A stretch of DNA of 64,000 bases from Halobaculum halobium (GTDB lineage Archaea; Halobacteriota; Halobacteria; Halobacteriales; Haloferacaceae): positions 2,232,001-2,296,000 of the forward strand of contig NZ_CP126158.1 of the NCBI RefSeq assembly GCF_030127145.1. The letters run 5' to 3'. The notes beneath the pieces were generated by a model. The model was not told where the DNA came from. It searched no databases and was given only the letters and a program-made list of their open reading frames with translations. Within the stretch, counting starts at the first letter, position 1. Each line of letters opens with the position of its first letter. A program made the position numbers and the translations under genes. This document shows, piece after piece, positions 20,410-22,669 of this stretch.

Positions 20410-22263
20410 CTACGCTTCGGGTTCGGGCGCCTCGGTCGTCTCGACGATCTCGTCGACGATCGCCTGCGGGTCCTCGTCGCGGATCTCGTTGTGGAGCACC
20501 ACCGATATCGGAAGCGTCGGGGCGCCATTCACGAGGTTCTGCATGAGGACGAGTCGCTCGCGGGCGCGAGACATCCCGACGTAGAAGACGCGGCGCTCGT
20601 TGTTCGTCAGCACCGGCACCGGGCTCGTGGACTTCGTGAACTCCTCGCCGTCGACGCCGGTCACGTCGAGCCCCTCCTGCTCGGCCTGCGCGGCCATCTG
20701 CTCGACCACCTTCTCGGTGAGATCGGTGTTGACGAACACGTGGTCGGCCTCGCGACCCTTCGCGGAGTGGATCGTGCCGAGGCGGACGCGGTTCGGGTCC
20801 TCCCCCTCGTAGTCGCCGGCGAAGTACGCCTTCACCGACTTCCGCTGGAAGCTTGTGATCTTCCGGGCCATATCGGCGGCCGCCGGCCCGTCCGGCATGA
20901 ACGGGACGTAGTCGTTCACGTCTTCCGGCGACAGCGGGATCTCCGCGAGGTCGTCCGCTTCTGCGGTCTCTTCCACGTCGTCGAGGAAGTCGTACAGCTC
21001 GTCGCGGTCGTTGCTGCCGAACGCCGAGTCCTGGAGGATGTCGGCGAGCCGGCGCGCCTGCAGCGCCGTCATCGCTTTCCCCTCCTCGACGGCCTCGACC
21101 GCGCGGACGTAGTCGGTGAGCCGATCGGTCCACATCCGCTGGTCGGTGAGACAGGAGAACGGGATCCCCTCGCTCATGAACTCGTCGATGAAGTCGAACA
21201 TCTGATAGCGCGCGCGAAACAGCAGCATCACCGTCTCGTCGTCCGTGCTGCGGACGGTGTGGCGAACGTTCCGCACGAGGTCGAGCATCGACGGGGAGTC
21301 GACGGCCTCGACGGCGCCGCCCTCCTTGCGGGGCTTGAGGTCCTTCTCCTGGCGCTTGTCGATGTGGCGGATCTCCGTGTTGACGACGTTGAGAATGTTC
21401 GAGGGGAGGCGGTAGGAGTTCGGCAGCACCTCGTCGTTGTCGACTTCCGTGTCGAGCAATAGCGCGGGGTCGGCGCCCTGCCAGGCGTACACGACCTGGT
21501 CGTCGTCGCCGGCGATGAGGGCCGTCTCCATGTGGGGCTTCCACTCCTGGTACACGTCGTACTGCAGCGTCGTGATGTCCTGGAACTCGTCGATGACGAG
21601 GTGGTCGACGCTGGGAAGCAGCGAGCGCTGCGCGACGCGTTCGAGCATGTCGGCGAAGCCCACGAGCCCCTCGTCGCCCTTGTACGCCCGCCACGCGCGG
21701 ATCGCCTCCGGCACGTCGAGGCGGTCGTCGTCGCCGGGCCACGTCGGCGTGTACTTGTTCCCCTCCTGTGCGTTCGGGTCGATCTCGGGGGGCAGCCGGA
21801 CCTCCTCGACGTCCCACTGGAACGGCACGTCGTACCAGTCGGCCACGTCGCGCTTGGTGCGCTGGAGCCACTGCGAGGTGGCGATCACCTTGTTCCCGAG
21901 CGTCGTCGACCGCGCGGTGCGGCGACCGCCGCCGGAGTACTCGTCCTCGAACTCGACGCCGTAATCGTCGCAGAACTCCTCCTTGTCGTCCTCGCCGACC
22001 ACGTCGCCTCGCGAGAGGTTCAACAGCTCGTACGCCTTCGCGTGCATCGTGGCGACGTTCCCCTGCAGGTGGCGGGGGGTGGTGTCGAGCCGCTCGGCGA
22101 GGCGTTCCCGCACCTCGGAAGCCGCGGCGCGCGTGTACGAGACGACGAGGATGTCGCGGATGTCCGCTCCCTCGTCGATAAGCCCCTCGACGCGGTCGAG
22201 GAGCGCGGTCGTCTTCCCGCTGCCCGGACCACCGAACAGACGGGTCACCGTCGGGTCGCTCAT
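20410..22263 (-). CDS. UvrD/Rep-like superfamily 1 DNA helicase
   Basis: A 617-aa SF1A helicase. Motifs in order: I GGPGSGKTTAL near residue 11, Ia SYTRAAASEVRERL, II LVIDEFQDIT, III AGDDDQVVYAWQG, IV NSYRLPSNIL, V GTIHSAKGREADHV and VI VFYVGMSRARERLVL. It is shorter than bacterial UvrD (about 720 aa). It likely unwinds DNA 3' to 5' in repair or replication restart; uvrA lies 27 kb away in the same window. ATG 22263 has a good TATA (minus strand GCTTATGAG, 22286-22294) 27 bases upstream. Followed without spacing by the M24 peptidase. Confidence 0.93.
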   Translation of the reverse strand: MSDPTVTRLFGGPGSGKTTALLDRVEGLIDEGADIRDILVVSYTRAAASEVRERLAERLDTTPRHLQGNVATMHAKAYELLNLSRGDVVGEDDKEEFCDDYGVEFEDEYSGGGRRTARSTTLGNKVIATSQWLQRTKRDVADWYDVPFQWDVEEVRLPPEIDPNAQEGNKYTPTWPGDDDRLDVPEAIRAWRAYKGDEGLVGFADMLERVAQRSLLPSVDHLVIDEFQDITTLQYDVYQEWKPHMETALIAGDDDQVVYAWQGADPALLLDTEVDNDEVLPNSYRLPSNILNVVNTEIRHIDKRQEKDLKPRKEGGAVEAVDSPSMLDLVRNVRHTVRSTDDETVMLLFRARYQMFDFIDEFMSEGIPFSCLTDQRMWTDRLTDYVRAVEAVEEGKAMTALQARRLADILQDSAFGSNDRDELYDFLDDVEETAEADDLAEIPLSPEDVNDYVPFMPDGPAAADMARKITSFQRKSVKAYFAGDYEGEDPNRVRLGTIHSAKGREADHVFVNTDLTEKVVEQMAAQAEQEGLDVTGVDGEEFTKSTSPVPVLTNNERRVFYVGMSRARERLVLMQNLVNGAPTLPISVVLHNEIRDEDPQAIVDEIVETTEAPEPEA

Positions 22264-22285
22264 TACTGTGTCCACTCGGCCGCGA

Positions 22286-22294
22286 CTCATAAGC
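22286..22294 (-). promoter_or_regulatory. TATA box of UvrD-like helicase
   Basis: Minus-strand GCTTATGAG centred 27 bases before ATG 22263. It fixes the start at MSDPTVTRLF rather than at an upstream in-frame codon. Confidence 0.55.
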
Positions 22295-22453
22295 GCCGTG
22301 GCTTGCGCCAGCGAACGGACGTGTCTGGAACGCAGAAGGTGTGTCTCGACGCGCTCGCACTGTGACGGGATCGCGACGACGAGCGCGCGAAGCGATCAGC
22401 GGTCGGTCAGCGGTCGATCGACGTCGCTCAGCAGTCGGTCAGCAGGCCGGCAC

Positions 22454-22636
22454 TCACGGCTCGGGTCGCCACCCGCACACCGAGCACTCGACAGCGTCGC
22501 CCTCGTGAAGTCCGCCGCAGTCAGGACACTGTTTCTTGTTATAGGACTCCTCCCATCGGGCGGTCTCCACGTCGTGGCCGCGACTGGTCAGGAACTCGTC
22601 GAACAGGTCGCCATCTGGGCTCGGTGCCGACGCCAT
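22454..22636 (-). CDS. Zinc-finger miniprotein (HVO_0416-like)
   Basis: A 60-aa protein ending in a two-CxxC zinc ribbon: KKQCPDCGGLHEGDAVECSV then CGW near the C-terminus. The N-terminal part FDEFLTSRGHDVETARWEESY is conserved in haloarchaeal zinc-finger miniproteins of the HVO_0416 type as I recall them. Likely a nucleic-acid or protein-binding small regulator; function unproven. The ATG at 22636 is supported by the TATA (minus GTATATG, 22663-22669) 30 bases upstream. A palindrome lies between TATA and start. Confidence 0.82.
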   Translation of the reverse strand: MASAPSPDGDLFDEFLTSRGHDVETARWEESYNKKQCPDCGGLHEGDAVECSVCGWRPEP

Positions 22637-22637
22637 A

Positions 22638-22669
22638 CATGGTACGCTATACCATGGCTGCACATATAC
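22638..22669 (-). promoter_or_regulatory. Promoter with 7-5-7 inverted repeat at zinc-finger gene
   Basis: Inverted repeat CATGGTA-CGCTA-TACCATG (22638-22656) fills the space between the TATA element (minus GTATATG, 22663-22669) and the ATG at 22636, covering the predicted transcription start. This is the position of a repressor operator. Arms match perfectly. Confidence 0.5.

Follow-up and report, generated by a model that had tools for sequence, protein, structure and literature searches.

A conserved palindromic element between the TATA box and the start codon of a haloarchaeal zinc-finger gene as a putative operator shared with two other gene families

The zinc-finger locus

The window, i.e. 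the whole stretch of 64,000 nucleotides of Halobaculum halobium DNA that was analysed, contains on its minus strand a gene for a protein of 60 amino acids (MASAPSPDGDLFDEFLTSRGHDVETARWEESYNKKQCPDCGGLHEGDAVECSVCGWRPEP), the ATG of which occupies positions 22634-22636. The preliminary description had taken it for a zinc-finger miniprotein gene, which was borne out by the NCBIfam model NF041910 (HVO_0416 family zinc finger protein). The protein scores 115.8 bits against a curated cut-off of 80 and is matched across its full length (residues 1-58 of 60), which makes it a member of that family. It has two CxxC pairs of the C(P)XCG type, C37, C40, C51 and C54, invariant in 32/32 aligned proteins. 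Among the basic residues conserved in these 32 proteins, K34 is invariant and K35 and R19 are nearly so. The protein belongs to the small zinc ribbons, and by sequence it weakly matches ribosomal protein eL40 (E 0.0065). Its structure model is moderate (pLDDT 73, pTM 0.40), and the fold search gave no significant match; the best E value was 0.19, and eL40 and zinc ribbons of the RanBP2/NZF kind came nearest. The gene is carried by 167 of the 170 searched genomes of the family, which we take to be Haloferacaceae; this name and the family placement of the named loci below follow genus names and general taxonomic knowledge.

The related gene HVO_0416 of Haloferax volcanii belongs to the same family NF041910 and has a regulated leaderless transcript; the accessible parts of the three reports differ from the present case in that they mention no promoter operator (PMC6490895, PMC6560208, PMC6562870). 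The transcript is described as having no 5'-UTR and as changing in abundance between growth conditions (PMC6490895). Under phosphate starvation sRNA132 brings about a transient decrease of this transcript, after which another, slower mechanism takes over (PMC6560208). Deletion of the gene led to a gain of biofilm and left the other tabulated tests unchanged (PMC6562870). Haloferax volcanii has 49 zinc-finger micro-protein genes, and the role of each is said to need experiment (PMC11241148).

Upstream of the ATG lies CATGGTA-CGCTA-TACCATG (CATGGTACGCTATACCATG), the perfect inverted repeat that had first drawn attention to the locus and that is present as reported (Table 1). It had also been described as filling the gap between TATA box and ATG exactly, which needs correction, with 6 bp left toward the TATA box and 1 bp ahead of the ATG. 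The element is flanked by the TATA box and the transcription start, as an operator would be, if the Halobaculum transcript begins at the ATG as the HVO_0416 report suggests. With up to 3 mismatches allowed the repeat has one copy in the window, and the 3.46-Mb genome holds one exact copy and three further sites with 2 mismatches. Symmetry alone was rejected as a measure of significance because perfect inverted repeats with 7-bp arms and spacers of 0-12 are common in the window: there are 183, and 8 first-order shuffles of the window average 152 (sd 12.5).

Table 1 Features of the zinc-finger locus. Positions are those of the window. Column Gene position denotes the position relative to the ATG of the zinc-finger gene. 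Half-sites are those of the phase analysis.
Feature	Window position	Strand	Gene position	Remark
Perfect 7-5-7 inverted repeat	22638..22656	.	-20 to -2	
Conserved 23-bp promoter element	22637..22659	minus	-23 to -1	Form of the host species: AGCCATGGTATAGCGTACCATGT
Half-site 1, CATG	22653..22656	minus	-20 to -17	
Half-site 2, TATA	22648..22651	minus	-15 to -12	Distinct from the TATA box
Half-site 3, CGTA	22643..22646	minus	-10 to -7	
Half-site 4, CATG	22638..22641	minus	-5 to -2	
TATA box, TATATG	22663..22668	minus	-32 to -27	Ortholog TATA columns conserved at -30 to -25
60-aa HVO_0416-family zinc-finger gene	22454..22636	minus		NF041910 match; probably leaderless, by the HVO_0416 report
UvrD/PcrA-like helicase gene	20410..22290	minus		Downstream, conserved neighbour; named from its sequence

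Conservation of the promoter element

The alignment of orthologous promoters that the preliminary description had called for was carried out without gaps, anchored at the ATG. We read 130 of the 167 ortholog promoters (30 loci and 100 fetched) and kept 128, two being left out for a misplaced start. In these 128 Haloferacaceae promoters a TATA box is evident, and constraint extends over -23 to -1, where 19 of the 23 columns carry at least 0.5 bits. Their consensus is TGGTATGNCATACCATRNCRTGT directly before the ATG. Each genus was then scored by a matrix trained on all other genera, and a threshold of 6.5 bits was used, the highest score that the all-genus matrix gave to any of 669 background starts. 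With these leave-one-genus-out matrices 112/128 promoters lie above the threshold, and at least one promoter matches in 26 of the 27 genera. The poorly matching genera are g11 (0/4), g2 (1/3), g13 (2/5) and g23 (2/4). A second matrix was made without Halobaculum; it also omits the weak-matching genera g2, g11, g13, g22 and g23 and is therefore sharper. With this matrix the zinc-finger promoters of all 11 Halobaculum genomes score 18.5-37.4 bits, and the best of 1278 background starts scores 1.6.

The element is also found beyond this family. By title, 41 of the 80 named loci belong neither to Haloferacaceae nor to Natrialbaceae, some being unplaced metagenome assemblies, and all 41 score above 6.5 bits, 40 of them at 20.7-31.5 and one (L200) at 14.5. 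None of the 18 Natrialbaceae zinc-finger promoters matches (maximum score 1.6), and a different conserved stretch occupies the position of the element. Inverted repeats occur at that position in 5/18 of them, one being of the 7-7-7 form, a count that does not exceed the shuffle maximum of 5. The Natrialbaceae site is diverged; we dropped the idea that this family had simply lost it, another dyad being there in 5/18. In Natronococcus sp. A-GB1 (L193) the usual element is replaced, immediately ahead of the zinc-finger ATG, by CCGTGGT-N7-ACCACGG, and related Natronococcus loci have shorter repeat forms.

The repeat might act as an RNA hairpin, or be part of an upstream coding sequence, instead of being a DNA site, and an in-frame GTG at 22663 would put it inside a 69-aa reading frame. 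However, the orthologs share the start M(A/S) together with the promoter columns up to -1, and the HVO_0416 mRNA is reported without a 5'-UTR, which would leave the site untranscribed (PMC6490895). We consider this explanation very improbable.

Half-sites, phasing and symmetry

The consensus consists of four YRYR tetramers with a period of 5 bp. At -20, -15, -10 and -5 a YRYR tetramer is present in fractions of 0.71, 0.70, 0.67 and 0.77 of the 128 Haloferacaceae promoters, versus 0.00-0.13 off phase. The corresponding values for 40 Haloarculaceae-type promoters are 100, 82, 85 and 100%, with 0% off phase. As a class, YRYR tetramers are their own reverse complements, and an array of them therefore has several dyad centres at intervals of 2.5 bp. 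Peaks of symmetry were observed at -18.5, -16, -13.5, -11, -8.5 and -6, the 7-5-7 repeat being the form centred on -11.

Pyrimidine-purine steps are flexible, and a run of them between TATA box and start could serve the core promoter or initiation with no need for a regulator. The element does sit where the DNA melts at initiation, but other promoters were not found to carry it: the best of 436 TATA-bearing starts scores 3.8 bits versus the 18.5-37.4 of the Halobaculum zinc-finger promoters, so that this explanation appears quite unlikely.

The arms of the 7-5-7 repeat are perfect in 6/11 Halobaculum genomes (G000, G010, G013, G014, G015 and G019) and have at least one break in the others. Loss of symmetry in orthologous promoters had been named beforehand as a finding that would count against the operator, and the outcome is divided: exact symmetry is gone in 5/11 Halobaculum genomes, whereas the underlying array persists. 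Symmetry drifts while the array persists. Inverted repeats with arms of at least 5 bp are nonetheless in excess. Of 119 distinct Haloferacaceae promoters 53 have one, versus 11.9 on average and 20 at most in mononucleotide shuffles; of 37 Haloarculaceae-type promoters 12 have one, versus 3.4 on average and 8 at most in shuffles. The longest dyads are CATGGTATATCATACCATG in H. gomorrense and CACGGTATACCATACCGTG in another genus, and in two differing 8-3-8 forms, CATG..CATG and CACG..CGTG, both arms are altered together.

A chance palindrome of one species would agree with the frequency of 7-bp inverted repeats (183 in the window) and with an exact form that is perfect in 6/11 Halobaculum genomes only. 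It is contradicted by this dyad excess and by the conservation in 26/27 genera and in other haloarchaeal families, and it is hardly credible. We regard the palindrome as more than chance because it is conserved across species, its symmetry being in itself weak evidence.

Other genes with the element

A scan of the host genome for TGGTA-N-TACCA gave a second site, TGGTATGACGTAGCATACCA, the end of which is 4 bp before the ATG of a gene for a TrkA-N/TrkA-C protein. With the matrix made without Halobaculum, TrkA-like promoters of 7/11 Halobaculum genomes score above 15 bits, whereas the 1278 background starts reach 1.6 and a scan of both strands of 400 kb reaches 14.0. When the search region is widened, the highest background score becomes 5.7 among 1281 own-genome starts and 14.2 among 1726 named-locus starts. 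In all 11 Halobaculum genomes the TrkA-like promoter exceeds all 100 dinucleotide shuffles of its own region; dyads are present in 5/11, within the shuffle maximum of 5. The TrkA-like gene was matched in 24 of 28 genomes of other genera, and in the 23 of these promoters that were read no clear copy was seen by eye; G021, G101 and G103 have partial similarity to the element before the gene. The promoters of a second TrkA-like paralog (L247-L250) have another conserved block, ending in GGTA(C/G)CAC directly before the ATG.

We also built a whole-genome search model from 73 zinc-finger promoters (R1). It recovers the zinc-finger promoter in 11/11 Halobaculum genomes and in 17/18 genomes of other genera, many of these promoters being among its training set. 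The TrkA sites are weak with R1 (E 0.43 and 0.56, in 2/11 genomes). Two extra R1 matches (L335, L337) each precede a gene for a DUF7331 micro-protein (PF24018), a family present in 157/167 genomes. Across Haloferacaceae the element is weaker ahead of this gene. We then scored 39 DUF7331 promoters, the two discovery genomes excluded. The counts are non-independent, several genomes being close relatives: of the 39 promoters, 33 exceed the 99th percentile and 18 the 99.9th percentile of the scores of 3007 background starts, and 2 exceed their maximum (14.2). Compared with their own shuffles, 25/39 lie above the 99th percentile, and shuffled regions reach 23.9. In the host genome the DUF7331 copy is degenerate (-6.4). 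In two loci of genus g8 (L350, L353) a perfect 8-5-8 repeat, GTGTGACA-TTCCT-TGTCACAC, directly follows the TATA box of the DUF7331 gene. Weak R1 matches in L341 (G082) and L343 (G168), with E values of 0.44 and 0.53, are each immediately followed by a further small zinc-finger (CxxC) gene.

The consensus forms are GTATGnCATAnCATAnCATGT for the zinc-finger, GTATGACGTAGCATACCACnG for the TrkA-like and CCGTGnCATnnCATACCACGG for the DUF7331 promoters, the last set being anchored on TACCA/TAGCA. An element-only model (R2) was trained on the three sets. In the 11 Halobaculum genomes it gives 28 matches at E values up to 10, namely 10 zinc-finger, 7 TrkA-like and 5 DUF7331 promoters and 6 remaining matches, 1 of them to a zinc-finger site read on its reverse strand and the other 5 elsewhere. 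In 24 genomes of other genera, at E values up to 1.5, it gives 16 matches in 13/24 genomes (10 zinc-finger, 1 DUF7331 and 5 others) and nothing in 11/24. Two strong element matches lie elsewhere: one of 25.5 bits (L262, G011:C1:2399367) before a GTG-start 96-aa reading frame, and one of 17.5 bits (L263, G014:C1:1537315) in an intergenic region with no obvious gene.

The four-unit pattern YATR-N-YATR-N-YATR-N-YATR shows no genome-wide enrichment in the host genome, with 7 sites versus 13 for the reversed control. The pattern TGGTA-N(0-15)-TACCA has 15 sites versus 8 in the control, an enrichment that we discounted, since one repeated element accounts for three of the sites and a second one for two. 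Near-identical repeat copies with TGGTACTTGATACCA in a 252-aa reading frame are found at L221, L230 and L232 (G000:C1:63291, 2779307 and 2823298).

The putative regulator

The element occupies the space from the TATA box to a start that is probably leaderless, is found in many genera and is common to unrelated genes. For these reasons we consider it likely that the palindrome, with its four YRYR half-sites, serves as operator for a regulator of its own, a sequence-specific DNA-binding protein other than the zinc-finger protein. The preliminary description had argued from position for a self-acting operator. The operator part is supported, since the TATA-start element is conserved and shared between genes; the self-acting part found no support. 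A similar element also precedes unrelated genes, the TrkA-like one in Halobaculum and the DUF7331 one in many genera.

Autoregulatory sites are often the most constant target of a regulator, a place that falls here to the zinc-finger gene (gene in 167/170 genomes, promoters matching in 112/128). The 60-aa protein, with its conserved basic K34, K35 and R19 in 32 proteins, might then repress itself through the palindrome in its own promoter, the other genes having been recruited later. However, no DNA-binding fold is recognised in it: the sequence match to eL40 (E 0.0065) is weak, and the nearest folds are not significant. Recognition of a 19-bp site of four parts would, in addition, fall to one short zinc ribbon. 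Moreover, the protein is well conserved in Natrialbaceae (58-67% identity in 5 aligned proteins); these 5 keep the basic residues, and the promoters of that family are without the element (0/18), some with another dyad. Autoregulation is thus unlikely. The zinc-finger protein, suspected earlier as the binder, is a poor candidate because it is a zinc ribbon with a weak eL40 match and is conserved where the element is absent. The site is probably bound by another regulator. Among the R1 and R2 matches that were read there was no regulator gene carrying its own copy of the element, and the binding protein was not found.

Such a separate regulator would occupy the four self-complementary half-sites, 5 bp apart, between the TATA box and the leaderless start. 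In operators of the DtxR/MntR type half-sites are staggered by 5 bp, and two dimers bind on opposite faces. The 5-bp phasing of the zinc-finger element may parallel this stagger; the sequence is a different one, and no such protein has been linked to the element. Because of the 5-bp spacing and this analogy, we infer that the regulator would most likely bind as a pair of dimers offset by half a helical turn. The bound protein, which from the placement of the site is probably a repressor, would keep the initiation complex from assembling; a site at the promoter or downstream of it is usually inhibitory, according to the accessible part of the CdrS report (PMC8406309). The zinc-finger and DUF7331 genes, and in Halobaculum the TrkA-like gene, would thereby be expressed under some conditions only.

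Comparison with known regulators

As an operator, the element would be a new one of a known kind, with a small apparent regulon. Three haloarchaeal systems were compared with it, as far as the accessible text of the sources goes. The operator of RosR in Halobacterium salinarum is likewise an imperfect palindrome of about 20 bp near the start codon (mean 18 bp) and was required for repression of a tested promoter, but its consensus, TCGnCGACGAGnTCGnCGAC, is unrelated in sequence (PMC4287449). The CdrS sites of Haloferax volcanii also form a symmetric motif, that of a small haloarchaeal regulator; 15/18 of them, however, are located 41-110 nt ahead of the start site, versus -20 to -2 here (PMC8406309). 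The CsmR sites of the same species are semi-palindromes adjoining the TATA box, but read TATCA(N4)TGATA and lie upstream of BRE and TATA (PMC13286277). Membership in the RosR or the CsmR regulon was rejected on comparison by eye of TCGnCGACGAGnTCGnCGAC and TATCA(N4)TGATA with the ortholog consensus. Membership in the CdrS regulon was rejected on position and ChIP targets; HVO_0416 is absent from Table 1 and the main text of that source in its accessible form (PMC8406309).

We found no published description of the element in searches for HVO_0416, DUF7331 and the consensus strings, the coverage of which leaves out most subscription papers and preprints. It is possible, and we propose it tentatively, that the element marks a novel haloarchaeal regulon ancestral to Haloferacaceae and Haloarculaceae, with four half-sites for two dimers, comprising the zinc-finger and DUF7331 genes and newly the Halobaculum TrkA-like gene, and with a shifted specificity in Natrialbaceae.

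An operator shared with DUF7331, and in one genus with the TrkA-like gene, would provide a handle, as the 23-bp site can be used to fish for the regulator. The signal of this regulator would in turn tell when the zinc-finger, DUF7331 and TrkA-like proteins are needed. The 5-bp phased layout would make a clean model of an archaeal regulator occupying the region from TATA to a leaderless start.

Gene neighbourhood

A PADLOC run gave no match. Of the 80 named loci, 61 have a UvrD-like helicase relative close by on the downstream side of the zinc-finger gene, whereas the upstream carboxypeptidase was found in 14/80. Because of this difference we regard the zinc-finger/helicase neighbourhood as old, and it may bear on function. 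The arrangement seen at 20410-22636 of the window, with the zinc-finger gene upstream of the UvrD/PcrA-like helicase gene, occurs in three haloarchaeal families, and the adjacency hints at a possible link to DNA repair.
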